Below are positions 8,692-63,631 of a stretch of 64,000 nt of DNA, piece by piece. Origin of the DNA: Citrus sinensis (Eukaryota; Streptophyta; Magnoliopsida; Sapindales; Rutaceae). Both the position numbers and the translations under genes were made by a program. The stretch covers positions 37,343,501 through 37,407,500 of the forward strand of contig NC_068558.1 in assembly GCF_022201045.2 (NCBI RefSeq), given 5' to 3'. The stretch's first letter is position 1, and each line of letters begins with the position of its first letter. The notes beneath the pieces are model-generated. The model saw only the letters and a list, made by a program, of their open reading frames with translations, did not search any database and was not told the origin of the DNA.

Positions 8692-8794
8692 TTGTACAAA
8701 AATCGAAACGTTGTGTATTGAATAGAGAGAGAGTTTATGAAGAGAAATAATATCAATAGAGGGAGAGAGAGATTAAGAAGTACGTGGGAAGGGG

Positions 8795-24300: not shown

Positions 24301-26304
24301 AATAAATGATTAAATAAAATCTATAAATTTATTTTTACTTAGTATAACAATAATAAAATGATTTTATGTAATGAAAATAAAATAAAGTACTATCATTTGT
24401 TCATTAGATATTTCAGTTTATTACTATCTTATATTATTATTATTATTATTTAAATTAGTATATTTATTTAAATATAAATATAAACTAATATTTAACAAAT
24501 TTAGAATTTATTAAATAATAAAAATTAAATGATTATATTTGAAATATGACTAGTATTTGAATGCAATACAACCTAGACCCCATCTTCCATAAGTTATCAT
24601 TATCTAGTACATTAGACAAGTGGTGATGAGCATTAGTTATGTAATATCCATCACCTTTAACAAATCACCCTTAAGTCCCTTAACTGGTAATAAAATTTTT
24701 ATATAGTAACTAATTCTAATTTAGTATGTATTTTAGTGCTTTATGTAATAGAAAATAATAACCATTAGGGGTCAATTTCGAAATAAAAGTGGTACTTACA
24801 ATTGCACATAATATACACCATATTTAATCACATACATCATGAAATCGGGATAAAAAGTTTGGTAATTACTCTCCTTACTAATCACCTGGTTTGTTGTGGT
24901 GTTTTGGTGTTTGAAATTTTATCTTAAAATATCTGATGTTTTGAGCGTTTAAGAACTAAAATGGTTAATTAATTTTTTTTAAAGTTGCTGACGTCATCAT
25001 GCCACGCTACTGCCACGAGTCCAATCCATCAAAGACAGTCCACGAAGGACCCACGATTTAATAACGCAATCCAGGTGGTGGGTAAAACTACAAGATTAGG
25101 GTTGCGTTTGGGATTGAGGTGCGGTAGTTTTTAAGTTATAATTGTTGTGAAAAAAAAATTATAATTATGAAATAAAAGTTAATAATATATAATAAATATA
25201 AATTTTAAATAATAATTTTGATAAAATTATTAAAGATATAATAAATTTTATATTATACAAGTGAAAAATTATATCAACATAATTTAAAAATTACGGCCTA
25301 CCCTCAATCCCAAACGCACCTTAGATCTCGATACAGGACTCATGTCGGGTCCCACACTAATAAGTCTGACGTGTCGAGATTTTGGAGTTTTTCGCTCAGG
25401 CGCACGTGACGTTAGCACCTAAACCGGTATACTCCTCATCCCAAAAAAAGAATAATGATCACAGTCAGCTTTTCTGTTTAGAAATTCAACAACGGCCACT
25501 TGATGTCGTGATTCACTCCTCAAGTGGGACCCGCCTGCGATGACGTTAGCGGGATCAACAGAAAATTAACTGAATATGTGTCTTTAAGTCAATGCCTGTG
25601 ACACAATCAACTGACAGACACAATTAACTGACAGGCCAACAGGTGATTTTAGCGCCGCCGTTGCAAAAATCCAATATTCAGTATTTATTTATTTATTTAC
25701 TTTTTGCTCAGCTCGGACCCGAGGGAGAAAATCCAGCCCCGGATCGAGAAATTGGGAATGAAAAAGAAATTAAGTGGGATCCACTATCACGGTGAGTGAC
25801 TGGATTCCTCGCACGGCGTGTGACTGATCGAAAGAAAAAGATCACAAAAGTAAAAACAGAATTGAAAAAAATTAATGAAAAAAAATAACGTACAGATGTG
25901 ATCAGCTCGAGATTAAGCTCGTCGGGTCTCAAGAGCATATCAGCGCTGGGGTTTCTGTAAAACATGAACTCACGCTCGCCGTCAGCCCGCAGGGTCACGA
26001 ATGCAAGGGCAGTCCTGGCACCCTGGTCAAAGTTGATGCCGTCAGCGCTGACTCCGTTCTCCTCCAAGATCCCAGCGAGCATGCGACCGAACTCGTCCTC
26101 GCCGAGCTTGCCGACGAAGGCTGCCTTGCCCCCGAGGCGAGCCACGGCTACGGCGACGTTGGCGGGGGCGCCGCCCGGGGCCTTGAGGAAGCCCGGGGCC
26201 TCGGCGAGGGAGACGCCGGAGACCGTCGGGACGAAGTCGATGAGCATCTCGCCGAAGGAGACGATCAGCCCTGAGGAGGATGAAACGGCGCCGTCTGTCG
26301 GCAT
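21379..26304 (-). CDS. FRK: Fructokinase (pfkB family), copy B
   Basis: The tandem paralogue of copy A makes the same reaction. Exons are 26304-25894, 23106-22774, 22074-21958 and 21555-21379, the first three the same lengths as in copy A. GGAPANV and DTTGAGD are kept. Exon 1 differs at about eight residues, exon 2 (111 residues) appears identical, and exon 3 differs at about five (such as RVKT for HVNT). Near the C-terminus one extra base shifts the frame after EALALLK. The end GA-stop is replaced by about 21 different residues, including a Trp/Phe-rich tail, giving 345 residues. The tail lies after the pfkB core, so activity may survive. The start MPTDGAV is chosen because an upstream in-frame ATG (26418) lies before the TATA box. 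Intron 1 is about 2.8 kb against 0.9 kb in copy A. Confidence 0.87.
21645..21949 (+). mobile_element. tRNA-derived SINE in fructokinase B intron 3
   Basis: A 289-bp insertion (21653-21941) is flanked by perfect 8-bp duplications TATGAGAA (21645-21652 and 21942-21949). Copy A has the empty site with a single TATGAGAA near 6227-6234. The 5' part looks like a tRNA: an A-box-like region around 21671-21684 and a perfect B box GGTTCGAACC at 21711-21720, about 36 bp apart. The 3' end is AT-rich. These are the marks of a Pol III SINE. It points along the plus strand, opposite to the host gene. Confidence 0.85.
23290..25010. other. Copy-B-specific insertion in fructokinase intron 1
   Basis: Alignment with copy A intron 1 breaks at about 23290 and resumes at about 25030. 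The extra 1.7 kb is very AT-rich, with many runs of AATA-type sequence. I see no open frame, terminal repeats or LTR ends, so its origin is unknown. Loss from copy A is equally possible. Confidence 0.45.
25096..25323. mobile_element. Tourist-like MITE in fructokinase B intron 1
   Basis: A 222-bp element (25099-25320) has long imperfect terminal inverted repeats of roughly 40 bp, starting GGGTTGCGTTTGGGATTGAG and ending in the complement of GGTGCGTTTGGGATTGAGG. It is flanked by TTA on both sides (25096-25098 and 25321-25323). The interior is AT-rich with no coding. Copy A has the empty site (GATTAGATC near 7728). A TTA target duplication and a GG...TTTGG end suggest the PIF/Harbinger group. 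Confidence 0.82.
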
Positions 26305-26399
26305 TTGTACGAAAATCGAAACGGTGTATATTGAACAGAGAGAGTTTACTCCGAGAGAGTTTAATGACAGAGATAGACGAAGAAGCAAGTGGGAAGCGG

Positions 26400-26419
26400 T
26401 ATTTATAATTTTAGCCAAT
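26400..26419 (-). promoter_or_regulatory. TATA and CCAAT boxes of fructokinase B
   Basis: TATAAATA on the minus strand at 26400-26407 lies about 97 bp before the start codon. On the complementary (plus) strand a CCAAT motif lies at 26415-26419, only about 8 bp upstream of the TATA box. The TATA box matches copy A; the region further upstream does not. Confidence 0.6.
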
Positions 26420-46930: not shown

Positions 46931-47084
46931 AAAATTATAATATTGAATCTAGACGCAATTGAATACTAGATTGGGCACAAGGAATAAGAAACAAGTGTGT
47001 GCAAAAGGCATGGGCAAAAATCGTCGGCACAGACCAAAAAAATTGATTCTCAGAACTTGATCTTACCTACCCAGCATTCTGACT

Positions 47085-47251
47085 AGATACACATATCATT
47101 AACTTTCGCTTGAGTGTAAGTATTTGTCTCATCCAGTTATCTTCAAAGTTCTATGGTCCCCTTTGCCAAAGCCACTCGTGGCTGGCAGTTTCTGAAGTGC
47201 ACATGAATCAGTAACATGTGTGTATACAGAACCCTGGCTTCATTATAAATA
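47085..47251 (+). promoter_or_regulatory. MIR395 copy 1 promoter
   Basis: TATAAATA at 47244-47251. The upstream block shared by copies 1, 3, 4 and 5 (CCAGCATTCTGACTAGA...) includes AGATACAC at 47085-47092, one base off the TEIL/EIL-type site whose complement is AYGWAYCT. SLIM1/EIL3, an EIL protein, drives MIR395 under sulfate limitation in Arabidopsis; use of this site is inference. Confidence 0.6.
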
Positions 47252-47300
47252 ACGAGGACTGCACCACTAAGTAATCAGAAACCAATTAAGAAGCAAAAGA

Positions 47301-47403
47301 GTCAGTTGGTTCCTGGAGTTCCTCCGAGCACTTCATTGGGGTCATTCAGAGAAAAGTCGTCACCCTACTGAAGTGTTTGGGGGAACTCTGGTTGCCACCT
47401 GAC
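47301..47403 (+). ncRNA. MIR395: MIR395 copy 1
   Basis: A microRNA precursor whose product silences ATP sulfurylase and SULTR2;1 mRNAs under sulfate limitation. The 21-nt mature sequence on the 3' arm (47368-47388) starts CTGAAGTGTTTGG and ends GGGAACTC, matching miR395a. The 5' arm (GAGTTCCTCC...CACTTCATT, about 47316-47337) is complementary to it. The ends GTCAG and CTGAC close the base of the stem. First of five in this window. Confidence 0.95.
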
Positions 47404-47456
47404 ATTACAGTTGTATCCTTTTGTTTTCTTTTTTTTTCCCTTTCCTTTTGAATTGC

Positions 47457-47462
<6 letters not shown>

Positions 47463-47502
<40 letters not shown>
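47463..47502. repeat. (CT)n(TA)n microsatellite
   Basis: About 15 CT units are followed directly by about five TA units, 60 bp downstream of MIR395 copy 1. Confidence 0.9.
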
Positions 47503-47503
<1 letters not shown>

Positions 47504-47569
47504 ATAGTTATTTTTCATTTGTTTGATATTTAGTAGGAGTAAAATAATGTGATCATACATAGTAAATGT

Positions 47570-48206
47570 ATATAGGGGGTGTTTGGCGTCCATCATAACA
47601 CGAGTGCAATGCAATCTCATGTTTGGTGCAGCAACCCCACTCTCAGTCGGGTTTAGCTTATGTGGCAATTAGCCACATTAGTTTTTTTTTTCTTTATTAT
47701 AATAATAAATAAATATAATTTTTAATTTAAAATGATATTATATTATATAATATTAAATTTTATTTTATTATATAAAAATATAACTAAATATTGTATTATT
47801 TAATTATATTATAATAATTAATATATAAAATTGATTGTTATTTAACAATTTAATATAACTAATAATGAATACTTAAATAATATATTAAAATAAAAATATA
47901 ATATAATATTACATTATTTAATTATATTACAATAAATTAGATATTAGAATTAATTATTTTTAAATAATTTAATATAGCTAGTAATAAATACTTTTAACTA
48001 CTAATAATATGAATAATATTAATTTAAAATTAATAGTGATATAACTAATGATAAAAAAAAATTAGAACATATAATACAATTTATGTTGCAACAAACATAA
48101 TATTGCATTGTAACTTAATTGCATTATAACTTAATATAAATTAATGTATGCCATAATGCAATGCAATTAATACAATACAATACAGTGTACTAAATGCACC
48201 CATATA
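47570..48206. mobile_element. AT-rich MITE-like element
   Basis: A 627-bp element (47575-48201) begins GGGGGTGTTTGGC and ends AAATGCACCC, short inverted ends of the plant Tourist type. It is flanked by ATATA on each side (47570-47574 and 48202-48206). The interior is extremely AT-rich and non-coding. The duplication is in a TA-rich context, so its length is uncertain. Confidence 0.65.
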
Positions 48207-48505
48207 CTGTAATATACACACACCTAACATAATATTATAAAAGAATAAGGTGTAAACTTAATATTAGATCCAAATTCCATTTTAAATCTTTTTTGTAGCC
48301 ATAATCTCCACCCTATCTTATTCACTTACATTCAAATCCTTATCCTTTTGTTTCCATGGCTAGTGGCCAATCAATTTGACTATCATTTGGGATATATTAG
48401 TATTTATTAATTTATATATGCAAGGTTAACTTTCATGTAACTTGGATACCGTTTTATGCCTAAACCCGCATTTGGTATACAAATTTCAGAAAACAAAGAG
48501 TAAAA

Positions 48506-49867
48506 ATGCAACCTCAAATTCTTCTAGGCCTCAAACTATTCCTCTTCAAATCATTTCCAAGAAGATGATAAAATCAGAAACACCAACTCCTCATAAGCTT
48601 CGCTGATTGAGAATCTCATCCAATTGACCAGTTTCATCCTCCATTATACGTCTCCGAAACCTTTTGTTACCAAGCTGAAAACACAAATGGAAGGAGAGCC
48701 AAAATTCCAGGAAGAAGTAAGCAGTTGGAGAAGTTTCTATCAGAAATTTTAACCCTGTTTTATCCTTTAGCTGGAAGGTATATTAAGGAGAATCCCTCAA
48801 TCGATCGTAATGATCTTGGGTTCGAATATCTAGAAGCCAAAGTAGCTAGCTCTCTAGCTCCATTTCTTGACAGAAATGTTGATAGCAAGCAGCTAATCGA
48901 TTTTAGTCCGTATCAAACAGAGTCAATTACTAGTCCATTACTACCAATTCAATGCAACATGTTCGTTTGCGGTGGAATGGTTATTGGCTTGTGCATTTCA
49001 CATAGGATTGTTAATGCAACTGTATTGCATAAATTCTCAGATGAATGGGCTAAAGCTAGCCGAATTGGGATTCATAGAGTGGATAATATTGAACTCAGTT
49101 TCAGTTTGGCTATGCTTTTACCCACAAGAGAAATGGTGCCTGAAAGCATGTACGTGCTTCCTCTGAAGCCAGGATTGAAGACTGCATCAAAGACGTTTGT
49201 TTTCTATCGTCTGGCAATATCCAGTCTCTGGACAAATGCGGATAATAAAGGGCTAAAACGTTTGCCTTCTGGGCTGCAGTTCGTGACAACAGTTATATGG
49301 AAAGCTCTTAAACATGGGAAATTAAGGCCGTCTCTCATCGCTCACATGCTAAATCTGAGGGGGAGGACTCTTTTGCCGATATCAGATGATTGTTGCGGGA
49401 ACCCGATCAAGCCGATTTTCATCAGGTTTTTTCAGGAAATGAGCAAGAACATTCAGCTTCAGGATTTGGTATCTCTGGTTGGTGATGCTACAACAAAAAC
49501 TATTAACGAATGTGGGAAAATAGATAAGGGAGATGATATTTTCTTGATGGTGAACTATTCCTGTAGAGAAGCTGGCGAAGAATTCGAAAGAGGTGGATTA
49601 GATGCTTATTTTTTCACAAGTAATTGTGAGATGCCATTTTATCAGAATTTTAGCTGGGGAAAGGCTGTTCGAGATAGCCATGTTCAATCGCAAGTTCAGA
49701 TGATTGTGCTGATTGGTACTAAAGTTGGGGATGGAATTGAATCAAGGACATGCCTGGATGAAAATGATATGAAACTTTGTCAACAAGATCCTGACATTAT
49801 AACCTTCACTTCCACACAGCAGGAGGAGCTGTATGACTGTCCAATTTTTTTGCGCTCAAGATGTTAA
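48506..49867 (+). pseudogene. BAHD acyltransferase pseudogene 1 (vinorine-synthase-like)
   Basis: BAHD enzymes move acyl groups from CoA to alcohols or amines. This is the best-kept of four relics: one frame is open from about 48610 to the stop at 49867 and reads through most of the family, from QFHPPLYVSE, SEILTLFYPLAGRYI and IQCNMFVCGGM to LRSRC at the end. The N-terminal piece (MQPQ... TPTPHKLR) is in a different frame and meets TGA, so no ATG leads into the main frame in the proper place. The catalytic HxxxD is HRIVN and DFGWG is NFSWG. Both signature motifs have thus lost their Asp. No intron is seen. Loss of function is likely even if it were translated from a late start. Confidence 0.85.
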
Positions 49868-50300
49868 ATGAAATTTTGTGTTTGTTCTGGGTGATAATTG
49901 AAGCAAACTTCTGGTGTTCTAACCTCGCTAATCACATGGTTTCTTCGTGCAATAAATTTTTAATTCTTGAAACTGGTAATTAATTCCTCATCCTAATTTC
50001 AGGAATTATAACAGAAACTAGTAACGACCATTTGCCTGTACTACTCCATTCCTTCTATGTCTTTCGTTTTGGTGATGTTGTTGGTGATAATATGTCTGAA
50101 AAATAAGTAATCCTGAGAAAGTTGTAAATATATAGTAACATTGCAAAAATAATGAGTCAAACATCCACCAGAATAGTGAACCTGGATGCAATTGGATACT
50201 AGATTGGACACAAGGAATAATAAGCGCAAAAGGCAGGGGCAAACATTATCGGCACAGGCCAAAAAATTGATTCTCAAAACTTGATCTTACCTACCCAGCA
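49868..50300. other. Spacer between BAHD relic 1 and MIR395 copy 2
   Basis: Includes a stretch (about 50170-50290) that recurs before each MIR395 copy, with GGATGCAATT, CTAGATTGGACACAAGGAATAA and GGCCAAAAAATT motifs. No gene. Confidence 0.6.
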
Positions 50301-50386
50301 TTCTATGGTCCCCTTTGCCAAAATGGTTGGCTATTTCTGAAATGCATATATGAATTATTGACGTGTATTCAGAGCCCTACCTTCAG

Positions 50387-50394
50387 TATAAATA
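50387..50394 (+). promoter_or_regulatory. TATA box of MIR395 copy 2
   Basis: TATAAATA in the usual context. Upstream, the block between CCAGCATTCT and CTATGGTCCC is missing (joined at about 50305), so the AGATACAT-like site seen in other copies is absent here. Confidence 0.75.
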
Positions 50395-50444
50395 ATGAGG
50401 ATTGCACCGCTAAGTAATCAGAAACAAATTTAAGAAGCAAGAAA

Positions 50445-50552
50445 GTCTGTTGTCTTCCGGAGTTTGGGCACTTCATTGGGGTCATTTAGAGAAGATTTGT
50501 CAGCCCTACTGAAGTGTTTGGGGGAACTCTGGGTGCTGTTAAGGTTGTTGAC
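50445..50552 (+). ncRNA. MIR395: MIR395 copy 2, damaged precursor
   Basis: The mature 21-nt sequence is unchanged at 50509-50529. The 5' arm lacks about four bases in the region that pairs with the GGGGG stretch (GGAGTTTGGGCACTTC against GGAGTTCCTCCGAGCACTTC in copy 1). The base of the stem is also changed on the 3' side (GGTGCTGTTAAGG against GGTGCCACCTGAC). The stem should be weaker, and the promoter block is partly missing. This copy is probably on its way out. Confidence 0.85.
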
Positions 50553-50639
50553 ATTTTCCCACCTGAATTATTATATTTTATAGTTTTTACGTCATGATAT
50601 ACTTAACTTTAAATGTTTCTTCAGTTTGGTCCATACAAA

Positions 50640-51260
50640 CTCCCAAGGGACGTCACAAATGAAAAGACGAAATTTTAGAAAATGTAGAGTTTAATCCTGC
50701 AAAACAGCTTCTGTTCACACTGACAGCGCTTCACAAGACGAAGAAGTTTATGTGCGTACCACGAAAATCCCATGCAATTAATTTCGGATAGCGCAACCTT
50801 ATCAGTGCTTCAGTCCAGCAAAACCACTCTTCTTCAGCCCCACACATTTAGCGTCGTTATTAAGAGGCTGAAAAATTAATTCGAATTTTATCCACCACTA
50901 CCTTTTAGAAGAATAAAAGAAATCAAATTTGATGACCACCCTATCAATTGTCAATTGATAATAATTAACAAACAAGTTTCTCTTTCTTCTTCTTAAAGGA
51001 TTTGGACACAGTGCAACTTTGTATTGAGTTTCTTTATAAAGTATAATATGAGATTGGTAGTTATGGGATAAAAAATAATATGTAATTAAATTTTAACTAT
51101 ATATTGGTATAAATTAATGCACAGTCATTAAAGATTATGAGAGATAAACACAACTCATCATTGTATCCAAATACTATTTTAAATCTTGAACTCACTTTAA
51201 ATCAAATTTATTCACTTAAATTTTAAGTAGGAACGAGAGGTATGAGATTCAAATCCCACT
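50640..51260. other. Spacer with BAHD-region remnant
   Basis: About 50635-50700 (CAAACTCCCAAGGGACGTCACAA) resembles the DNA just before BAHD relics 3 and 4. The rest is AT-rich with no gene. Confidence 0.4.
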
Positions 51261-51743
51261 CATATGGGCATGGGCGGACCCAATTAAGGCCCAGGAGGGG
51301 CTTCAGCCCCCCTGGACCATTAAGTTTTCTTTTAAATGCACCCCAAGCCCCTTTTGAAAAAATTAGATAAAACAATTTGGACACATTTTTCATATATTAA
51401 AAGACTTGTGGTTCAATGGTAAGAGTGCTATTTAATGATTTTAAAACCTTGGTTCAAATCCCATTAGCCACATTATTTTATTTTTTAAAATATTTTATGG
51501 AAACTACTTCGAAAAATAATATTTTCACGCATTTAAAATACTACTTCAAAAAATGATATTTTCACGCATTTAAAAAATAATAATTTATTACTATTATTAT
51601 TTAGAATTTAAAAAAAAGTAATAAAATTTGAGTTTATAAGACTTAAAATGTATTCGAGTGAACATTAAAAAAAATCTAAGTTAAATAAAAATTTTTGAAC
51701 TAAGCCCCTCTCATTTTAGTTTCTGCGTCCGCCACTGCATATG
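51261..51743. mobile_element. Non-autonomous element with tRNA-like core
   Basis: A 471-bp element (51267-51737) with inverted ends around GGGCGGACC / GTCCGCCACTG and AGGGGCTT / AAGCCCCT, flanked by CATATG on both sides (51261-51266 and 51738-51743). Inside, 51408-51419 matches a tRNA A box (GTGGTTCAATGG) and 51451-51461 a B box (GGTTCAAATCC). Ends of this kind (CAGTGGCGGA...) are common in plant genomes. Whether the core is an old SINE inside a DNA transposon or one composite element is unclear. Confidence 0.55.
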
Positions 51744-51976
51744 AGTGGTGATAAAATTAGATTGCCATAAACTATAGATTAAAAAATAAAAAATAAAAAT
51801 AAAAACCCTAACCTCTTCCTTGCACAGCTGGAGACCAATTGACTGAACCATCATTTGGAATATATTAATATTTAGCGATTAATACATGGTTAAAGTTCAT
51901 ATAACTTGGGTGTGATTTTAATTATAAGTTCAAATCCCCGCTTCTGACATACAAATTTCAGAAAACAAAGAGTAAA

Positions 51977-52200
51977 ATGTGCAGCCTCAAAGTCCTCTTC
52001 AAATGCTTTCCAAGAAGTTGGTAAAACCAGCAATCCCAACCGTAACCTTCGCAACTGCTTGAAAATATATCATGCATTTACCAGTTTCATCCTCCATTAT
52101 GTACTTTTTCAACAAGATCCTGACATTATAGACTACTCTTCTACGTCAAATCAGCAGTATGATGATCGTCTAATTGTTTTGCGTTCAAGATGCATGTTGA
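51977..52200 (+). pseudogene. BAHD relic 2: N-terminus joined to C-terminus
   Basis: A start-like piece (ATG-TGC-AGC; CTCAAAGTCCTCTTCAAATGC...) runs to the YV of the N-terminal region and jumps straight to the C-terminal QQDPDII segment and RLIVLRSRC. Everything between is missing, so about 1.1 kb of the gene was deleted. Frame breaks are present. The same joint occurs at 57530-57805. Confidence 0.75.
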
Positions 52201-53328
52201 ATGGTGTGATAGATAGTTTAATTAGTAAAATCACTTGAGTATTCGAATCTCGCATTCATTTATAGGGAGGTTAGAACGATGAAACAAGCACACACGTTAG
52301 AACTATAAATAATTTCTTCGTACATAAGGTTTTTAAAATGCAATTGGTACTTAATTATTCATCCTATAAAGCAACGCAGAACACCAACTTACTCCACTTA
52401 TTAAAATTTGGATATTCAAGGCATTTTTGTTTTTATTTTTACAAATAACCTCACCCTAAAATAAATTTTATCAGTACAGGATTTATCATAGAAAAGTTTT
52501 CCATGCAGAGATAAAATTCATCTTCAAGTTCTTCTTTTAATTCAATAGTGTGTCGAAACCGGCATCGGCATAGTTAAGATTGGCTTTGTGTTCTTCTTCA
52601 GCTTCTGCGATCATACTTGTTTAGTTGTTTATGATTTTACAAGGCCGTGGTAAAATAAAATAAGGATTAAATTAAAAGATAAAAAAGTAATAAATTTACA
52701 TAATATTTTATTTTTTAGTGAACTGAGTTCATGTTTTCTTGTCTTTCCAGCTTGGTCCTCGTCAGTTTGTGATTAAAATGAACGTTACTCATCATAAGAT
52801 AATGACTTAAGCAATTAAGTAAACTGATGTTATTCACAAACATTAACCACCCGAAAATTAGTAAATTACAGCTTTACTTAGAAGACATATATGTGAAAGG
52901 ATAATATGTTGAACAGTGAATCTGTACGCTTTTCAGCGGTAGATATATTTGACGTAAGGCATAATATTGAAGTCCACATGCTATGCATGCCGCTATTCTG
53001 CCCTCATATCCATCACAGTATCAGGGGGTTGTCCTTGATTAATTAATTAATTAATTATCCATGTTATGAAGATTTCGTTCCTTTCTCTTGGTAATTAATG
53101 TACTTCGAGTGTGGATTAAAATTCGTAAAGCTCAAATAATTTCGTATCTACATCATCAAACTCTCCTCTCGTACCTTCGAGGTTAGCCGAAAAAGAAAAT
53201 TATTCGTATCTACAAGAAAAGATATATAGAAAAGGGTAGAACCTAGAATTGAAGGCGCCGATGAAAAATACAAAAGGCATTGGGCCAAAAAATTATTCTC
53301 GAAGTTTAACTTTCCCAGCATTCTGACT

Positions 53329-53450
53329 AGATTCATATATTATCAGTAACTTCCCTTGGGAGGATTTTTCTTCATCTTCAATGCTCTATGGTCCCTGTTG
53401 CAACATGCATGGAGGTAATAACATGTATACGGAACCCTTCACTATAAATA
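53329..53450 (+). promoter_or_regulatory. MIR395 copy 3 promoter
   Basis: TATAAATA at 53443-53450; AGATTCAT at 53329-53336, whose complement ATGAATCT fits AYGWAYCT. Confidence 0.6.
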
Positions 53451-53491
53451 GTGAGGGCCTCACCACTAAATAATCAGAAACCAAGAAGAAA

Positions 53492-53595
53492 GTCAGTTGC
53501 CTCCTAGAGTTCCTCTAAACACTTCTTTGGGGTCATTTGGAGAAAATGCCGTTGCCCTACTGAAGTGTTTGGGGGAACTCCGGGTGCCAACTGAC
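53492..53595 (+). ncRNA. MIR395: MIR395 copy 3
   Basis: The mature sequence is unchanged at 53560-53580. The 5' arm starts at about 53507 (GAGTTCCTCTAAACACTTCTTTGG); one base differs from the other copies (TTCTTTGG for TTCATTGG), adding one mismatch opposite the mature 5' end. The stem base is perfect, GTCAGTTG with CAACTGAC. Confidence 0.95.
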
Positions 53596-53647
53596 ATTAC
53601 AATGTCGATTGGGCATTACTATTGCTTTGTTTTGGGCTTTGGCTGGT

Positions 53648-54521
53648 GTGACATTTAGGCTTGGCAATTTAGCTTGACCTTATTTTTGGCCCGATTGACC
53701 CAATTCTAATTTTTAGGGCTTTGACCTGAATTTTTAAGTTTAGGGTCGAGTTAGGGCAAAGATTTTAAGGCTCAAACAAATTTAGGGTTAGGGTAGGGCT
53801 TAATGCCGACCCGACCCGACCCTATTTAAAAAAAAAAATTAACACAAGTTAACACATGCACACAACACATCCTCACAACATCACACATTGTGTGTTTTTA
53901 ATTTAATTGCATTATATTTTTATTTGTATAAGACATGAGTTTTTTTATTTTTTATTTTTTATGTTGTGTTGTTGAATTGAATTGTGTATGACTAAAATGG
54001 TTGTGGAATTATATTGTGTATTTTTAATTTAATTACATTGTGTTTTTATTTATATAAGACATGAGTTTTTTTATTTTTTATTTTTTATGTTGGGTTCTTG
54101 AATTGAATTATGTATGGGTAAAATAGTTGTGAAATTACATTATGTGTTTTTAATTTTATTACATTGTGTGTTTTTTATGTTGGATTTTGGAATTGATTTG
54201 TGTGTGGGGTTGAAATAGTTGTGGAATTGGTTGAAATGGTTGTGGAAAGTGGATTAGATTGTGTTTGAAATGGTTGAGTAATTGCCGAATTGATTGAAAT
54301 GGTGGTGGGAAATAAAAATTAAATTGTGGGGTTAACTATTTCGGTAGGGTCGGGTTGGGCTTGACCCGATGTTGGCCCGATTAGGGTCGGGCTCGGCCCG
54401 ACCCTAACTAAATAGTATTCGGACTTTTTTAGGATCGGGTTTTAAATTTCTTTTGATCGGGTCGGGTAGGGCTTGGCCAAGCCCGAGCCCGACCCGACAT
54501 TTTGCCATCCTTAGTGACATT
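53648..54521. mobile_element. hAT-like non-autonomous element, 858 bp
   Basis: The element (53656-54513) begins TAGGCTTGGCAA and ends TTGCCATCCTTA, with an exact 8-bp duplication GTGACATT on each side (53648-53655 and 54514-54521). The empty site is seen after MIR395 copy 4 (near 58855). Both ends are rich in GACCCGACCC-type motifs. The middle (53885-54200) has a roughly 126-bp tandem repeat, about 2.5 units, marked by AAGACATGAGTTTTTTTATT. No coding. Confidence 0.82.
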
Positions 54522-54842
54522 GCAACAGGAGTTGGATTAAATCAGGATCATGAGATCAGCTTCTTAGCAAAATTCACTAAAGTGATTGCTGGTTAATAAA
54601 TTAAAAATAAAAATAATTAAATCTTAATTATATACCAATAATCACACCATATCGGTTAGTACAAAATGATTATAGCATAGTTAATTATTTTTTATTATCT
54701 TTTGTTTTCATTCAATTAATATTTTATGTCATATCATTTTGTAAAAATTAACCCCATCATTGCTCTGTACTCTTTGTTGATTTGTTCTCCTCCCATAGGT
54801 AATGTTGGTTGAAAAAGACCAATTATCCTGTTAACGAAGAAG

Positions 54843-55498
54843 TTGCGGCCCATGCAAACTCCCAAGCGACGTCACAAAAATTCAAACAATAATTTCGGAC
54901 AGTGCAGAGTTTTATTCGATTTCGGAGGAATGATAATTGGCTCGCGCATTTCACGCAGGATTGTTGGCGCAACCGTATTGCGGAAATTCTTTGATGAATT
55001 GGCCAAAGCTAGCCGAATTGGGATTCATCGAGTCGATAATATTCATCCAGTTTCGGTCTGGCTATGCTTTCACCCACACGAGATATGGTGCCCGAAAGCA
55101 GATACGTGCCTCCTCTGAAGCCAGGATTGATGAAGACTGAAGACGTTTAATTGTTATCGATCATTTGGCACTACCCACTTAATCGCAGATCAATTGCGGA
55201 TAATAAAGGGCTAAAACGTTTGCCTCCGGGGACAGCTAAATATGATAAATTAAGGCCGTCCCTCGTTGTTCACGCGCCAACTACTCATTTGCCCATATCA
55301 GATAATTGTTGCGGAAACCCACACATGCTGGTTACCGTCAGGTTATTTTTTTTATGAAAAGAACAACAGGAACATGAAGTTTCAGGATTAATTTGGTATC
55401 TCTGGTAGGTGATGCAATAAGCAAAACTATTAATGAGTCTGGGAAACTAGAAAAGGGGCTAGCCAGCGAAGAATTCAAAAGAGAAGACTAGGTACTTA
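54843..55498 (+). pseudogene. BAHD relic 3, middle part
   Basis: Starts abruptly near GGMIIGSRISRRIVGATVL, the region of the HxxxD motif, where His is now Arg. It continues through KASRIGIHRVDNI, DNKGLKRLPPG and ISDNCCGNP to INESGKLEKG with several frame changes. It is cut at 55498 by a transposon; the C-terminal part resumes at 56424. Confidence 0.82.
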
Positions 55499-56423
55499 GG
55501 GAGTGTTTGGTACCTTTTTTCATTCATCATTTTTACAAAAAATTTTTTGGCAATGCTTGTTTCCTATTAGATTTTTTATATGTGTGAAAACAACAACTAA
55601 TTCTCTAAAGCTAACAAGAAAACAATAAAATATTTGTAGTGGTTTATGTATGAGTCTCAGACTTAGTTTTTCACTTCCTAACATCTAACGAATGTAATTT
55701 TTTTATCGGGCCCAACTGGACAACACCCAAACCTTATTTCTCTCTTATGTCTTTTTTTGTGAAATTACAGTTAAATCTTTATTTGTTGTGACTTTTGCTA
55801 ATTTATACGGGCAGTTGCTTTTTTCTAATTATTTTTTTGTTTTATTTAGTTTTTGTAATATAATAATTTTTTAACATGGTAACTTTAAAATTCTCCATTT
55901 AATCCGATTTAACCTCTCTTTTTAATTACAATTTTTTTAAAAATTTATAAATTTGTAAAAATCTTTTTAAGCTAGTTACTCTAATATTCAGTTATAATTA
56001 TTTTGTTTTACCAAGTTTACATTTCGTTTTTGAAAAAAAAATACATAAATTGACGCCACTAGAAAATAATGATAACGAAAAAAGTTAAATTTCTATAGAT
56101 AAATACAATTTAAATAAAGAATTTATAAAATTTAAAATAAACTATATATTTTAATTAACTTTTTTATTATTAAGAATATACTAATATTCTAAATTTCTAA
56201 TAGAGACCAATAATACTCTTTTTATTATATTCCTTATTTTCTCATTCTTTTTTATTGCCTCTATTTTTCCAAACAAATAACCAGCACATTCTCACTTTTT
56301 TATTTTCAAATACAATTTTTAAAAACAAACTACCAAATACATTTTCAAATTTACTAGAAACTAATCATTCTTTTATACTATAAATAAAAAAGCCTTTTGA
56401 AAAACAATACCAAATGCACCTTA
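55496..56423. mobile_element. PIF/Harbinger-like element in BAHD relic 3
   Basis: 922 bp (55499-56420) begins GGGAGTGTTTGGTACC and ends AATACCAAATGCACC, with TTA on both sides. The empty site is in BAHD pseudogene 1 (GATGCTTATTTTTTC near 49601). AT-rich, with no transposase frame seen. A sister copy occupies the same site in relic 4. Confidence 0.8.
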
Positions 56424-56816
56424 ATTTTTTTACGAATAATTGTGGGATAACATTTTATCCGAATTTTGGTTGGTGAGAGGCCGTTTGGAGTTAGCCAAGT
56501 TCAATCTCAAGTTGAGATGATTGTGCTGATTGATACTAAATATTGAGCGATTAATACTAAATATTAAGTGGAGAAACATATTCTTTAGGAGAGATATAAA
56601 CTCAAGCAACTTTCCTTTACAATGTAATATAGGGCGTAACTCAGCATTAAAGATGGGAATGGAATTGAAGCAAGGATGTGCTTTGATGAAATGATTTGCA
56701 ACTTCTTCAAGAAGAGTCTGACATCATGGCCTTCGCTTCCATACAACTTTTTCATTTTTCAACAAGATCCTGACATCATAGTACGATTGTCTGGTTTTCT
56801 TTTTAGCTGAGATTAA
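56424..56816 (+). pseudogene. BAHD relic 3, C-terminal part
   Basis: Resumes with the segment equal to FTSNCEMPFYQNFSWG in pseudogene 1, then VQSQVEMIVLI. An insertion of about 120 bp follows, then DGNGIEAR. The QQDPDI segment occurs near the end. Frame is lost in several places. Confidence 0.78.
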
Positions 56817-57529
56817 ATGCAATTTCGTGTTTGCTGTGGGAGATAAAATAGTTTAATTTATAATATCTCGAGTTAAAACAAAAACCTAGTGTACGAACCT
56901 CGCTAACCACATGGGTGAAAAGGCTATAAAACCAGCCTACCTTTATAACCTCTAATGAAACAAACGTATAAATATAATGTCTGTGGAAGCTCAAGGTTTT
57001 TAATTCATGAAACTGTTAATTAATTAATTCGCCATCCTAATTATCATGCCAAGTTGAAAATCTAAGCTACAAACTCGAATTAGAAGAACTTTAGGAAATC
57101 GAAGCGACACAGAACAGCAATTCTGTTATCTCATAAACTAAATTTGTTAAAATTTAGGAATGCAATTTTTTTTAAGTGCAAATAATCTCATCATGAAATA
57201 AATTGCATTAAATTTGTATCAAATTTAATAGTATATGAATTACCGATATCGTAAGATAAGCTTTTCCAACAAAGATAAAATCAATCTTTAATTCTTTTTT
57301 AATTTGATTCAATAGTGTTTGTTTGGGGAGGAATTTGGATTCTGACATGGACAAATGACTTCATGACACATGGCAAAGCTGGAGGCCAATTGAGTCAACA
57401 ATCATTTGGGATATATTTATACGTATTGATTAATAATGGTTAACATTCATATACCTCGGGTATCATTTTTATTATGAGTTAAAATCCCAGCTTCTGACAT
57501 AAAAATTTCAGAAAACAAAGAGTTAAAAA

Positions 57530-57805
57530 ATGCAGCCTCAAAGTTCTCTTCAAATCCTTTTCAAGAAGTTGGTAAAACCAGCAAACCCATCCCCTAGTAA
57601 CCTTCGAAGTTGCTTGAAAATATATCATCCATGTACCAGCTTCATTCTCCATTATGTACTTTTTCAACAAGATCCTGACATTACAGACTTCGCTTCCATA
57701 TCAAATGATCGTCTAATTATTTTGCGTTCAAGATGCATGTTGAATTGTGTTATAAATAGTTTAGTTGGTAAAATCTCTTCAATTCAATTGGAGGTTTTAG
57801 AATGA
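57530..57805 (+). pseudogene. BAHD relic: 91-codon N-C fusion frame
   Basis: An open frame begins MQPQSSLQILFKKLVKP, typical of the N-terminal BAHD region, and passes directly into QQDPDITDFASI and LIILRSRC, the C-terminal end. The catalytic middle is absent. It shares the deletion joint with 51977-52200, so the deletion came before the duplication of this unit. It lacks both signature motifs; a product would not be an acyltransferase. Confidence 0.7.
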
Positions 57806-58484
57806 TGAAACAAACATACGCATTAGCATTATAAATAATTTCTTCATACTTTAGGATTTTAAAATACAATTGGTAATTAATTATTCATCCTATAAAGCAA
57901 CACCGACCGCCAACTGCACTTATTAAAATTTGGAAATTCAAAGTATTATTATTATTGTTATTTTTTTTTTTTTTGGGTGCAAATAAGCTCACTGTAAAAT
58001 AAATTTTACAGTACATGATTATCATAGAGAAGTTTTCCATGCACTGATAAAATTCATCTTTAAGTTCTTCTTTTAATTCAATGGTGTGTTAAAACGGGCA
58101 TTGGCTTAGTAAAGATTGGCTTTGCGTTCTTCTTTAGCTTCTGGGATCGTACTTGCCTAGTTTTTATGATTCTACAAGGCCGTAGTAAAATAAAATGAGG
58201 ACTAAATTAAAATAATATAAAAAATGCATATTTTAATGTAATATTTTATTTTTTAGTAGACTGAGTTCATTTTTTTTCATCGTTCTAGCTTAATTGGGTA
58301 TATATGAAGTTCATGAAACTCTCCTCTCGGACATTTGAGATTAGCCAAGAAAGAAAATTCGTATATACAAAAAAATATATATCGAAAAGGATAGGCCTTA
58401 GAATTGGAGGTACCGGTGAGAAAGTACAAAAGGCATTCGGCCAAGAAATTATTCTCGAAATTTAACTTTCCCAGCATTCTGGCT

Positions 58485-58655
58485 AGATACATATATGATC
58501 AGTAACTTCCCTCAAGTGGATTTCTCTCTTCTTCAAAGATCTATGGTCCCCATTGCCAAATGCATGGCTGTCTAGTTATTTCTGAATTCTCTCTCTCCAT
58601 CTACACACTCATGCACGTAGTAATAACATGCATACGGAAGCCTTCACTATAAATA
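58485..58655 (+). promoter_or_regulatory. MIR395 copy 4 promoter
   Basis: TATAAATA at 58648-58655; AGATACAT at 58485-58492, a full match to the complement of AYGWAYCT. Confidence 0.65.
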
Positions 58656-58698
58656 GTGAGATTTTCGCCTCTAAGTAATCAGAAACCAAGAAGAAAAC

Positions 58699-58803
58699 GG
58701 TCGGCTGCCCCCTAGAGTTCCTCTAAACGCTTCATTGGGGTCATTTGGAGAAAAATTCGTCGCCCTACTGAAGTGTTTGGGGGAACTCCGGGTGCCACCT
58801 GAC
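58699..58803 (+). ncRNA. MIR395: MIR395 copy 4
   Basis: The mature sequence is unchanged at 58768-58788. The 5' arm (from 58715) reads GAGTTCCTCTAAACGCTTC, with a G in place of A that allows a G-U pair. The precursor is otherwise as in copy 3. Confidence 0.95.
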
Positions 58804-58849
58804 ATTACAATGTTGATCGGCATTACTATTGCTTTGTTTTGGGCTTTGG

Positions 58850-59460
58850 CTAGTGTGACTTTGCAATAATAGTTGGTTTAAGTCAGGATCAAGATCTCCT
58901 CTCATGATTTGATAAATCATCAGCTTCTCAGGAAAATTCACTCAAGTGATTGTGGATTAATAAATTAAAAATAAAAGTAATTAAATCTTACTTATCTACT
59001 AACACTAAAAGATAAGTGGTACAAAATCTTTAAAAACTCAGAAAAGTTCAAATCACTATAAGATCTTAATCTAAATATTAAAATATCATAAGGCCCACAA
59101 GATAGAGTTATACAAACTAATGCGCAATAAATGCATTAAGTGGTGGATGAAAATGACATGGCTCATATGATTAATGTTTTATTATTTTGTGTCTTCATCT
59201 AACCAGAACAAATAATTGTACCATATTAGTTAATCTAAAATGATTTATAACTCTACTATTGCCATTTCGTTTTTATTATTTTAATTTATGTTTTTTAATA
59301 AATTAATATTTTATGTGATATCATTTTGTACAAATTAACACTGTCATGACTATTTGTTCTTCCGCAATAGGTAATGACGGTTGAAAGAGACCAATTACCT
59401 TGTAATTGAAGAAGTTGCGGGCCACGCAAACTAACGACGTCACAAAAATTCAAACAACAA
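58850..59460. other. Spacer after MIR395 copy 4
   Basis: Matches the DNA on either side of the hAT-like element after copy 3, followed by AT-rich sequence and the short lead-in (GAAGTTGCGG...GACGTCACAAAAATTC) that precedes relics 3 and 4. No gene. Confidence 0.5.
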
Positions 59461-59464
59461 TTTC

Positions 59465-59954
59465 GGACAATGCAGAGTTTTATTCGATTGCGGAGGAATG
59501 ATAATCGGCTTGCGCATTTCACACAGGATTCTTGAGGCAACCGTATTGCAGAAATTCTTAGATGAATGGACTAAAGCAAGCCTAATTGGGATTCATGGAG
59601 TCGATAATATTCATCCCAGATTCGTTTTGGCAACGCTTTTACAGTTTTACCCACAAGAGATATGATGCCTGAAAGCAGATACGTGCCTCCTCTGAAGCCA
59701 GGATTGATGAAGAGTGAAGACGTTCGTTATCGATTATTTGGCACGTATAATAAAGGGCTAAAATGTTCGTTATCTATTTTCAGGAAAGAACAATAGGAGC
59801 ATGAAGTTTCAGGATTAATTTGGTATCTTGCAATAACAAAAACTATTAATGAGTGTGAGAAACTAGAAAAGTGTTATTGACTTTTCTTGATGGTGAACAA
59901 TTCCAGGAGAGGAGTTAGACACCGATGAATTCGATAGAGACGATTAGATGCTTA
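59465..59954 (+). pseudogene. BAHD relic 4, middle part
   Basis: Begins with the region of QCRVLFDCGGMIIGLRISHRILEATVLQKF; the HxxxD motif reads HRILE. It runs through DNIHPRFVLA with frame shifts, and a deletion removes most of the segment after NKGLK. It is cut at 59954 by the same kind of element as relic 3. Confidence 0.8.
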
Positions 59955-60859
59955 GGGACTGTTTGGTATCGCTTGTCATTCATCATTTTTCTTTTTGTTA
60001 AAAAGAAAAATTGAAAAACTTGTTTAGTAACGCTTATTTATTGTAGCATTTTTTGTATGTGTGAAAACAATAACAGCTTGTTCTCTAAAGTTTTCAAGAA
60101 AATAAGAAAACTGAAAATTTGTGTTTTACACATAGTGATTAGTGTATGGGTCCTACACTTACTGTGGGCAATTTGACAGCACATAAATCTTGTTTATCTC
60201 TATGTTCTCTTTTAGTAAAATTACAGTTAAATCTTTATTTGTTGTGACTTTTGTAAATTTTTATGGTCAATTGCTTTTTTTTTTCTTTTTTATTTTTATT
60301 TTTTGTACTATAATAATTTATTTTAACATGGTAACTTTAAAATTCTTCATTTAATCTGATTCGGCCTCTTTTCTGTTTAATTTCAATTTTTAAAATTTTA
60401 AGCTAGTTACACTAATATTCAGTTACTATTATTTTGTTCCATCAAGTTTTCATGTATCATCTGAAAAAAGATCACATACATTGACGCCACTAAAAATAAT
60501 CATAATTAAAAAAATAAATTTCTATAGATAAATGCATTTAAGATAAAGAATACATAAAATTTAAATAAACAATATATTTTAAAATAATTTTTTTACTAAG
60601 AATATACTAATTATTCAATTTCTAATAAAGACAATTAATACTTATCTTCTATAATATTATGTCTTTCCTCATTCTCTTTATTGTCTACATTTTTCCAGAC
60701 AAACAACCAAACACATTCGCACTTCTAATTTTCAGATATAATTTTGAAAATAATTACCAAACGGCTTTTCAAATTCACTAGAAACTAATCATTCCTCTAT
60801 ATTATAAAATAAATTTAAAAAAAACACACATTTTGAAAAATAATACCAAATGCACCCTA
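59952..60859. mobile_element. PIF/Harbinger-like element in BAHD relic 4
   Basis: About 902 bp (59955-60856), beginning GGGACTGTTTGGTATC and ending AATACCAAATGCACC; TTA on the left and CTA on the right. It aligns along its length with 55499-56420 and sits at the same codon position, so both descend from one insertion. Confidence 0.8.
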
Positions 60860-61144
60860 GTCTTTTACAAGTAATTGTGGAATAAAATTTTATCCAAATT
60901 TTAGTTGGGTAATGGTTGTTCCAAGTTAGCCATGCTCAATCTCAAGTTGAGATGATTGTGTTGATTGATATTAAATATTGAGTGGAGAGATATGTTTTAC
61001 TTATAAACCCAAACAACTCTCCTTTACAAACTAATATGGGGCATAACTCAACATTAAAGATGGGGATGGAATTGAAGCAAGGATGTGCTTTGATGAAAAT
61101 GATTTGCAACTTCTTCAAGAAAAGAGTCTGCGATCATAGCATTC
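60860..61144 (+). pseudogene. BAHD relic 4, C-terminal part
   Basis: Resumes with the NFSWG-region equivalent (TCCAAATTTTAGTTGGGTAATGG) and AQSQVEMIVLI, followed by the same roughly 120-bp insertion as in relic 3 and GMELKQGCALMKMICNF. It is interrupted at 61145 by a solo LTR; short remains continue at 61746-61778 and 62314-62440. Confidence 0.75.
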
Positions 61145-61745
61145 TGTCACGGGCCGCTCAAATCTCCCGCAATCGAAAGTTAATTTTGCGCACACGGGTT
61201 CGCTTAGCAAAAGTCTGCCTCGAAGTGGAGTGCGCTTAGCACTAAAGGCAGGATGCACTTAGAAGAGGGATGCGCTTAGAAATTGGCCACCAACATAACA
61301 AGCCAACCATGGTGCGCTTAGCGACCATCCAAGCCTGGCCCGAATTCTAAATTTCTCTATAATTTTAAATAAGCTAGAAGTTTCTAGAACTCTTCACTTA
61401 GACCCCTAAGATATTTATACAAGTTGCATAGAACTCTCTAGACCTACCATTCCAACACCTATAAATATGGGTGAGCCCCCTTGTTTGCCCACCAACCACA
61501 CCACATACACAAACACACCAACACACACAAGCTCTCTAGCTCTCTCATAAAAGCTCTCTTGTATATTATTTTTAGTATGTAATAAAATATATTTTGGCCA
61601 CATTGCTCTACTTCTCTCTAGTATTTTCTGCAAGCGTTCTTGCTTCGTTAATTTGAGAAGTGTTTTAGGCTTACGTAGTGATTGAGTGCTAGAAGTTGCC
61701 TAAGTGCCGCACAGGTTGCTGCGCAACGAAACTCATCTCATGACA
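61145..61745 (+). mobile_element. Solo LTR, 601 bp
   Basis: Starts TGTCACGGGCC and ends CATCTCATGACA, so the ends TGTCA/TGACA are inverted, as in LTRs. The flanks ATTC and ATTT suggest a 4-5 bp target duplication with one change. BAHD relic sequence resumes directly afterwards, so there is no internal domain. A TATA box (TATAAATA, 61460-61467) and an AATAAAAT signal near 61579 give U3-R order on the plus strand. The first 180 bp hold five variants of GCGCTTAG. Confidence 0.8.
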
Positions 61746-61778
61746 ATTTGCTTCCATGCAACTTCTTCAACAAGATCC

Positions 61779-62313
61779 TGTAATGGAGTGAGGCATAGCA
61801 AAAGCAGAAATTGATAGGGTAGGAAAACTAGATATTGTTTTGGTACTGGACCAAGTCAAAGTGATTAGGTTATGCTCTAATCGAAGCATGATTATATCTC
61901 ATTCTAACTCAAATGACTCAATGAGATTTTTAAATATGTGTAATGCGAGATTAGATGACGCTCTAATCCAAACGATTCTTTAAGAGAGATTTTGATATAT
62001 AATCTCAGAGGGAATTATAAAATGTGAGTTTTATTGAATAACTGAATCTGAAGTTATCAAAACAATGACAAGGCCTCTCTATTTATAATAGAGGAAACCC
62101 ACTTCCTTTAACTTAAAAAAGAAAACTAAATCACAATCATAATGGAAATAAAATACTCCTTATCTAAGTTAACTAAATCTCATATCTTAATTGACTCTAA
62201 TAAAAATAGAAAGTTCTAAAATAATAAACTACCATAATTGACTCCAATTAAAATAAAAAGTCTTAAAATAATAAAATTCTAAAATCTTAAAATTCCTAAA
62301 TTAACTTCCTACA
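61779..62313 (-). mobile_element. Solo LTR in antisense, about 535 bp
   Basis: Plus-strand ends TGTAATGGAG and CTTCCTACA give inverted TGTA/TACA. On the minus strand it reads TGTAGGAAG..., with a TATA box (TATAAATAGAGAGGCCT around 62075-62095) and ends CATTACA, which resembles a Copia-type LTR. It splits the QQDPDI codons of relic 4 (AAGATCC before, ATCTTGACATC after). The target duplication is unclear, so the right end may be off by a few bases. Confidence 0.6.
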
Positions 62314-62319
62314 TCATCT

Positions 62320-63166
62320 TGACATCATAACATGATTATCTTTTCTTTCTTTTCTTTTCTTTTTTTTTCAGGTCAAGATGTTGAATGCAATTTCATTTGT
62401 TGTGGGTGATAAAATAATTGAATTTATAACATCTCTTGAGTTGAAACGAAACTATGGTGTACGAACCTCGCAAATCACATGAGTGAAAGCCTATAAAACC
62501 ACCCTACCTCTATAAGCTCTGATGAAACAAACTTACAAATAGTTTCTTCATGTGCTCAAGGTTTTTAATTCATGAAACTGTTAAGTAATTAATTCTTCAT
62601 CCTAATTTTAATGCCAAGTTGAAACTGAAAGCTACAAACTCGAATTAGAAGAACTATAGGAAATCGAAGCAACGCAGAACACCAATTCTATTATCTTATA
62701 AATTAAATTTGTTAAAATTTTTTCTTTAGTAGAATCACCCTAAAAAAAAAATCGTTAAATTCAACAGTACGTGAATTAACAATATCATAAGATTAACTTT
62801 GTGATCTTCGGCTTCTGCGATGGTACTTATTTATGATTTTTTTTTCCAAGACCATGGTAAATTGCTGGAAACTCGAATATGGTGGTATGAACAACATAGC
62901 CAGTTTAAAGACAGATACATGAAAGGATAATATTTTGAATAGTGAATCTGGACGCAATTCAATGCTAGATTGGACGTAAGGAATAATTTTGAAGTCCTTA
63001 TGCATGCATGTAATCTGCCCTTTTGCGAGCTCCCCTAATCAGGGTTTACCATTGATTAATTAATTATCGATGTTGTAAAGATTTCATTTCTTTAGCTAAT
63101 TAATGTACTTAATTGAGTATGAGAGAGTGGGTTAAATTCATAAAGCTTCATTAATTACTTATCTTT

Positions 63167-63209
<43 letters not shown>

Positions 63210-63300
63210 TCAAAAAGGATATCCTTGGAATTGGAGGTGATGAGAAAAAACGAAAGGCATAAGAATGGGCCAAAAAATTATTCTCCAGACTTGATCTTTC
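62320..63300. other. Tail of BAHD relic 4 and MIR395 copy 5 upstream DNA
   Basis: The last BAHD codons (around 62370) are followed by the usual 3' flank (GGGTGATAAAATAA..., matching 56838 onward) and the shared pre-MIR395 stretch (GGACGCAATTCAATGCTAGATTGGAC near 62948). A (GA)n run lies at 63171-63205. No gene. Confidence 0.55.
63171..63205. repeat. (GA)n microsatellite
   Basis: A GA run of about 17 units, 290 bp before the copy 5 TATA box. Confidence 0.9.
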
Positions 63301-63314
63301 CCAGCATTCTGACT

Positions 63315-63468
63315 AGATACATATATCAGTGACTTAGTTCCCTTGAGTGGATTTCTATCATCTTCAAAGTTCTATCATCCGTGGTCCCTTAATTGCCAAA
63401 TGCATGGCTGGCTATAGCTGAACTCTTCATGTGAAGTAATATGAAGGTAGAATCCTTCACTATAAATA
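63315..63468 (+). promoter_or_regulatory. MIR395 copy 5 promoter
   Basis: TATAAATA at 63461-63468; AGATACAT at 63315-63322, a full match to the complement of AYGWAYCT. Confidence 0.65.
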
Positions 63469-63520
63469 GTGAGGGCTGCAGCAGCAAGTAATAAGAAATT
63501 AACCGTGAGAAAAAAATTCA

Positions 63521-63631
63521 GTCAGTTGTCTCCGGGAGTTCCTCCGATCACTTCATTGGGGCTATATGATCATTTAGAGAAAATTTGTCACCCCACTGAA
63601 GTGTTTGGGGGAACTCTGGGTGCCACCTGAC
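63521..63631 (+). ncRNA. MIR395: MIR395 copy 5
   Basis: The mature sequence is unchanged at 63596-63616. The 5' arm (GAGTTCCTCCGATCACTTCATTGG, from 63536) pairs well. The loop is longer than in the other copies because of a few extra bases (GGGGCTATATGATCATTTAG). Stem base GTCAG with CTGAC. Confidence 0.95.

Follow-up and report, generated by a model that had tools for sequence, protein, structure and literature searches.

The region analysed is a 64,000-nucleotide (nt) stretch of the Citrus sinensis genome (C3:37343501-37407500, hereafter the window), which contains a tandem array of five MIR395 microRNA (miRNA) genes separated by the remains of BAHD acyltransferase genes. Coordinates are window positions unless they carry the prefix C1, C3, C4, C5, C7 or C8, and genome searches covered 299.7 Mb in 11 contigs. 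The mature 21-mer CTGAAGTGTTTGGGGGAACTC, located on the 3p arm, is identical in all five genes; its exact copies in the window are all on the plus strand and start at 47368, 50509, 53560, 58768 and 63596, and no copy was present in 100 shuffles of the sequence. The genes are spaced 3.1-5.2 kb apart, and a genome search for the 21-mer with up to two mismatches found no sixth C3 copy. An earlier note on this DNA had assigned one 21-nt mature sequence and a TATAAATA box to all five genes; both are present throughout, the TATA box lying 117-135 nt 5' of every 21-mer. The hairpins, scored with the Rfam MIR395 model RF00451 (gathering cut-off 56 bits), are as follows.

47306..47398, plus strand: MIR395 copy 1 hairpin; mature sequence 47368-47388, TATA box TATAAATA 47244-47251, Rfam 56.5 bits

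50450..50539, plus strand: MIR395 copy 2, damaged hairpin; mature sequence 50509-50529 intact, TATAAATA 50387-50394, 40.6 bits

53497..53590, plus strand: MIR395 copy 3 hairpin; mature sequence 53560-53580, TATAAATA 53443-53450, Rfam 60.6 bits

58705..58798, plus strand: MIR395 copy 4 hairpin; mature sequence 58768-58788, TATAAATA 58648-58655, Rfam 67.5 bits

63526..63626, plus strand: MIR395 copy 5 hairpin; mature sequence 63596-63616, TATAAATA 63461-63468, Rfam 66.6 bits

50301..50305, plus strand: promoter deletion junction of copy 2, located by self-comparison and alignment, with TTCT common at the junction

Four of the five copies (1, 3, 4 and 5) reach the gathering score, copy 1 marginally, whereas copy 2 is well below it. 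The folding energies of copies 1 to 5 are -61, -33.8, -60.9, -56.5 and -57 kcal/mol, with z-scores relative to shuffled sequences of -8.3, -1.8, -8.5, -6.9 and -7.2, and the miRNA/star duplex is well paired in copies 1, 3, 4 and 5. In copy 2, alignment places a 4-nt deletion in the 5p (star) arm facing the mature strand, and folding gives a duplex with a 4-nt bulge inside the mature strand. This copy is also without about 72 nt (counted by hand) of the promoter found in copy 1: the copy 1 matches that end at 47080 and restart at 47149 overlap by 4 nt at 50301-50304 of copy 2, and the deletion removed the promoter box described below. Copy 2 is a decaying gene, its box gone and its star pairing partly gone. 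The statement that all five genes are conserved is accurate as regards mature sequence and TATA box but was rejected as a whole, because copy 2 has no sound fold, sufficient Rfam score or full promoter. Since this gene is decaying and yet retains its 21-mer, an intact 21-mer alone is no proof of selection.

The upstream regions of the five copies differ by Jukes-Cantor (JC) distances of 0.16-0.44 next to the 21 invariant bases, and their FastTree tree has a total length of 0.871 substitutions per site. Under an exponential estimate, 21 invariant bases would be expected by neutral drift with a probability of about 1e-8 at this length (4e-7 at 0.7 and 8e-10 at 1.0). These figures, and the retention of box and hairpin in four of the five copies, argue against a history of pure neutral tandem duplication in which the likeness of the mature sequences reflects recent origin or gene conversion and dose has never been selected. 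The decay of copy 2 with its 21-mer kept would fit such a history, as would the disagreement of the trees, in which upstream regions group as (1,2), (3,4) and 5 and hairpins 1 and 5 are the closest pair (JC 0.086, compared with 0.431 for the same pair upstream); we regard it as improbable. The difference between the trees nevertheless counts against selection as the sole keeper of the hairpins, since gene conversion could have preserved their likeness. The view in the earlier note that selection holds only the miRNA finds support in copies 1, 3, 4 and 5, in which mature sequence, hairpin, TATA box and promoter box are all kept; it does not extend to copy 2, where the box and part of the star pairing are gone.

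BAHD genes (PF02458) or their remnants occupy all four intervals between the MIR genes.

48507..49867, plus strand: BAHD1; broken N terminus 48507-48610, followed by a 418-codon open frame at 48611-49864

51973..52192, plus strand: BAHD short_a; N-terminal piece joined to the last ~30 codons, the middle being deleted

54900..56783, plus strand: BAHD long_a; first ~115 codons gone, ~0.9-kb insert (about 55495-56420), stops and frameshifts

57524..57736, plus strand: BAHD short_b; deletion junction identical to that of short_a

59468..61121, plus strand: BAHD long_b; N-terminal junction and insert identical to those of long_a

51822..57372, plus strand: block comprising BAHD short_a, MIR copy 3 and BAHD long_a, with a tandem duplicate from 57373 to about 62720 (self-comparison)

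The third interval holds two remnants, at 54.9-56.8 and 57.5-57.7 kb, because the last duplication involved a BAHD-MIR-BAHD block and not a simple pair. The open frame of BAHD1 matches PF02458 with E 1.2e-33 over residues 5-394, and its best solved relative is a monolignol ferulate transferase (E 4.3e-49), vinorine synthase also being among the solved relatives. The extent of this frame and these matches would be expected if BAHD1 were a working or recently recruited gene, read through an upstream exon or from a shifted start, but its start and motifs make this quite unlikely. Translation from the ATG at 48565 runs into a stop after 13 codons and is not in phase with the main frame, a frame change precedes 48611, and the open frame itself has its first in-frame ATG only at codon 117 (hand count on the translation). 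The motifs HXXXD and DFGWG define BAHD enzymes; in BAHD1 they read HRIVN, with N for D, and NFSWG, as compared with SHRIAD and DFGWG in the nearest relative found in the genome, a paralog at C8:16930785. This paralog is only 39 % identical, and BAHD1 therefore looks like a lone, old lineage; in 39.5 kb outside the window no BAHD match was found at E values up to 10. The earlier note had described the protein gene copies as having lost frame, motifs or most of their length, which is true of the four fragmentary remnants and of the start and motifs of BAHD1, but not of its 418 stop-free codons.

The lesions of the BAHD remnants can be ordered relative to the last duplication, which copied about 5.5 kb. 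Of the five segments compared between the block and its duplicate, four have JC distances of 0.134-0.150 and the insert has 0.181; a distance near 0.145 presumably corresponds to some tens of million years at the substitution rates we assume for trees. The short remnants have one internal deletion junction in common, and the long remnants have in common the loss of ~115 N-terminal codons and the 0.9-kb insert. As two large deletions and one insert are common to both block copies, these BAHDs were broken before the block was duplicated, and this step cannot have been favored for BAHD function. The order of lesions means that the miRNA array was still growing after the protein-coding neighbors inside it had died. 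For the older steps, homology between units 1 and 2 starts at 46808 and at 49994, the latter shortly past the end of BAHD1, a boundary consistent with a unit in which BAHD follows MIR395. The repeated unit of one BAHD plus one MIR395 gene that the earlier note had proposed is in line with the presence of BAHD in every interval but does not cover the last step, which moved a larger block.

Tandem BAHD families are common in plants, and it is conceivable, although unlikely, that BAHD drove the early duplications with MIR395 as the passenger, the BAHDs dying later while MIR395 was kept. The long frame of BAHD1 is in keeping with this idea: a neutral distance of 0.0865 predicts 3.7 stops and gives a probability of 0.025 for none in 418 codons (0.12 at a distance of 0.05 and 0.28 at 0.03), and about nine frameshifting indels would be expected by our own scaling of the computed indel rate, so that the death of BAHD1 may be recent or incomplete. 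With the C8 paralog as outgroup, neither relic taken alone shows fewer changes than BAHD1 (46 against 42 for long_a and 47 against 30 for long_b), but where both relics agree against BAHD1, more changes fall on the BAHD1 side (24) than on the relic side (16). Substitutions between BAHD1 and long_a are distributed over the codon positions as 44, 40 and 41 of 245, 243 and 243, with no third-position excess; the corresponding counts are 35, 31 and 34 of 205, 204 and 207 for BAHD1 and long_b, and 17, 23 and 16 of 180, 177 and 181, again unbiased, for long_a and long_b. Taken together, the codon-position and outgroup counts give no clear indication of constraint on BAHD1. The age of the short and long lesions relative to the last block duplication and the lack of a close paralog in the genome also stand against a BAHD-driven array.

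Three further sequences in and around the long remnants were noted. The insert in long_a (about 55495-56420) and long_b (59953-60862) has GGGNNTGTTTGGTA-like ends and TTA-like flanks, and it resembles a PIF/Harbinger-type miniature inverted-repeat transposable element. In the long_b region, a stretch of ~600 bp at 61147-61744 starts with TG and ends with CA and, by eye, may be a solo long terminal repeat. The segment 61145-62380, which contains this stretch, does not align to the first block copy (block A).

We conclude, with a probability of roughly 0.8, that the locus is a MIR395 array formed by segmental tandem duplication, with four sound copies, one decaying copy and dead BAHD passengers; as a cluster it is ordinary MIR395. 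In the ancestral unit, a single MIR395 gene and its promoter would have lain next to a BAHD acyltransferase gene. The BAHD copies would then have decayed to passengers, the short and long ones having been broken before the ~5.5-kb BAHD-MIR395-BAHD block was copied.

Elsewhere in the genome, the 21-mer is found exactly at C4:27674618 (plus strand) and within two mismatches at C4:27671855 and C5:25006844 (both minus strand). With 74.6 and 62.1 bits, both C4 loci pass the Rfam cut-off, which the C5 gene narrowly misses (52.8 vs 56); the fold z-scores of the two C4 loci and the C5 gene are -6.9, -2.1 and -6.7, respectively. Around the C4 pair and the C5 gene, no BAHD was found out to a distance of about 30 kb, the sole match there having an E value of 9.9, and BAHD as a regular partner of MIR395 was rejected for this reason. 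BAHD looks like a local passenger, a neighbor caught in the duplication and not half of a functional pair, and the pairing is most likely a by-product; a limited literature search found no published account of it. Three diverged MIR395-like hairpins are also present on C5, about 50 kb apart, at C5:24858500-24860100, 24913300-24914950 and 24961000-24962650, with 1.6 kb covered at each. Relative to the C5 gene, their mature sequences carry an extra C and one or two substitutions, and their fold z-scores are -5.9 and -5.4 (good) and -1.2 (poor). They are possibly dying copies or represent a new miRNA specificity.

The promoter box absent from copy 2 was identified in the other four array genes by alignment and a genome motif search.

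47079..47091, plus strand: promoter box CTGACTAGATACA of copy 1

53323..53335, plus strand: promoter box CTGACTAGATTCA of copy 3

58479..58491, plus strand: promoter box CTGGCTAGATACA of copy 4

63309..63321, plus strand: promoter box CTGACTAGATACA of copy 5

The sequence CCCAGCATTCTGRCTAGATWCA is common to these copies, and its 15-column windows, with 14 columns invariant, are the most conserved 5' of their hairpins. Similar distances are seen for the C4-minus gene, with CCCACAATCCTGACTAGGTTCA, and the C5 gene, with CCAAATTCTGACCAGGTTCA: measured from start to start, the 13-mer precedes the mature sequence by 289 nt in copy 1, 237 nt in copy 3, 289 nt in copy 4 and 287 nt in copy 5 of C3, by 291 nt in C4 minus and by 239 nt in C5. 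The 13-mer CTGRCYAGRTWCA has 58 matches in the genome, as compared with 94 for a reversed control, counts for this motif being possible lower bounds; hairpins of MIR395 or MIR395-like genes account for 9 of the 58, a further 14 were examined and the 35 others lie outside the comparison. It is present within 300 nt upstream in six of the eight MIR395 loci known by their mature sequence, where the genome-wide count predicts 0.00023 matches. It is missing from copy 2, through the deletion, and from C4 plus; the latter contains AGATTCA at -335 as well as sequence that can be aligned to the C4-minus box but is devoid of its AG core. Three further box matches on C5, 45-148 kb from the C5 gene, led to the diverged hairpins and start 222-236 nt 5' of their miR395-like sequences; these copies are related to the C5 gene and so provide no independent test of conservation.

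The core of the box, AGRTWCA, resembles sites for EIL proteins, for which the accessible part of one report gives the consensus AYGWAYCT and a 20-nt SLIM1-bound UPE-box, AGATACATTGAACCTGGACA (PMC9573389). Within 480 nt around each 21-mer, AYGWAYCT is matched in full by copies 3, 4 and 5 but not by copy 1 or 2, nor by the loci on C4 and C5; the sites of copy 1, C4 minus and C5 match at 7 of 8 positions (hand count). Compared with the UPE-box as given in that part of the report, copies 4 and 5 carry AGATACAT, which is its first 8 nt and the reverse complement of an AYGWAYCT site, and AGGTTCAA, found at the C5 loci, is reverse-complementary to TTGAACCT inside it (PMC9573389). The promoters differ from it in having only one 8-nt half-site, preceded by the CTGACYAG stretch, and the full 20 nt were not seen in them. 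A limited literature search, with sources accessible in part, found no description of a kept CTGACYAG stretch 5' of an EIL-type half-site, and no published account of the promoter box was found.

In Arabidopsis, induction of miR395 requires SLIM1, and two reviews, in the portions available, leave open whether the effect is direct or indirect (PMC4206189, PMC8910084). A SLIM1/EIN3 site is enriched in the promoters of sulfate-responsive tomato miRNAs, according to the accessible text of PMC12428225, which means that the idea of the box was partly anticipated. From the promoter sequences, direct control of miR395 by SLIM1 is plausible. More specifically, we suggest, at somewhat less than even odds, that SLIM1/EIL3 binds directly to the box (about CCCANNATTCTGACYAGRTWCA), which would be a MIR395 response element kept across unlinked promoters that can otherwise hardly be aligned, and that loss of the box silences copy 2. 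If so, SLIM1 control of miR395 would be direct and the array would constitute a natural deletion experiment. The common box offers a concrete site at which to ask whether SLIM1 acts directly or indirectly, copy 2 serving as an internal negative control.

Several points weigh against this role of the box. It was discovered by inspecting these same promoters, and its rarity therefore gives no formal P value. The copies on C3 and C5 are duplicates, which reduces the independent loci to three with the box (C3, C4 minus and C5) against one without it (C4 plus). The 12 pairwise local alignments of promoters from different loci are weak, 0 to 378 of 500 shuffles scoring as well, and the best aligned segment touches the box in only six of the 12 pairs. 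Among the matches listed, 14 further exact-variant matches (13 stretches) have no miR395-like sequence on the same strand within 600 nt on the 3' side, where the best matches to the mature sequence have 8-10 mismatches; on these grounds the 13-mer was rejected as a sufficient mark of MIR395. Three of the box-match stretches (L036, L038 and L048) have open frames that look copia-like by eye.

Candidate targets of the miRNA were sought by a complement search allowing up to three mismatches, which gave 19 places in the genome (4 for the reversed control), 13 of them being the mature or star arms of MIR395 genes themselves. Three of the other six candidate sites are at ATP sulfurylase or SULTR-like genes: one is inside an ATP sulfurylase frame on C1 (PUA_2, E 1.3e-31), and two, on C7 and C5, are immediately 5' of the first in-frame ATG of a sulfate-transporter-like gene; the first exons of these two genes are short, have no Pfam match and match a solved SULTR-like protein with E values of 7.6e-9 and 1.1e-6. 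The remainder comprise one site within a thiolase-like frame and two of unclear context. Counting these candidate sites, the genome contains the components of the canonical miR395 circuit.

Anatomy, lesion order, conservation and candidate target sites are direct observations on the DNA, and a working array could be pictured as follows. Copies 1, 3, 4 and 5, each with box, TATA box and strong hairpin, are apparently complete transcription units. Under sulfate shortage, a factor of the EIL3/SLIM1 type would bind the boxes and each copy would be transcribed on its own. The identical miR395 from several copies would then add up to a higher dose acting on the mRNAs of ATP sulfurylase and sulfate transporters, from which the plant might benefit.

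Other elements in the window include one of ~0.85 kb at 53661-54508 with an internal 126-nt repeat, a second copy of which (85 % identity) lies about 19 kb outside the window (C3 about 37426934-37427719). A pfkB-type (fructokinase-like) gene is present in two copies on the minus strand, at 7041-8772 and 22738-26418, about 15 kb apart; the PfkB domain match was tested on the second copy, and the first is known from its open frames.

MIR395 clusters of rice, Arabidopsis and other plants are described, in the accessible text of PMC2812943, as several hairpins that arose by tandem duplication, and the Citrus array resembles the rice and Arabidopsis clusters in comprising several tandem-duplicated hairpins for one miRNA. 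It is far less compact than the rice cluster in which eight hairpins are contained in 497 bp, as compared with the spacing of 3.1-5.2 kb found here, and whereas three rice clusters perhaps have one promoter each, each Citrus copy has its own TATA box and four have the promoter box (same source, in part). BAHD1 is like BAHD acyltransferases in its PF02458 domain and sequence but differs from them in its altered motifs and lost start, the other four remnants being fragments. It is the presence of such decayed BAHD copies between the hairpins that distinguishes the Citrus array from the rice and Arabidopsis clusters, as far as these are described in the part of PMC2812943 cited here.

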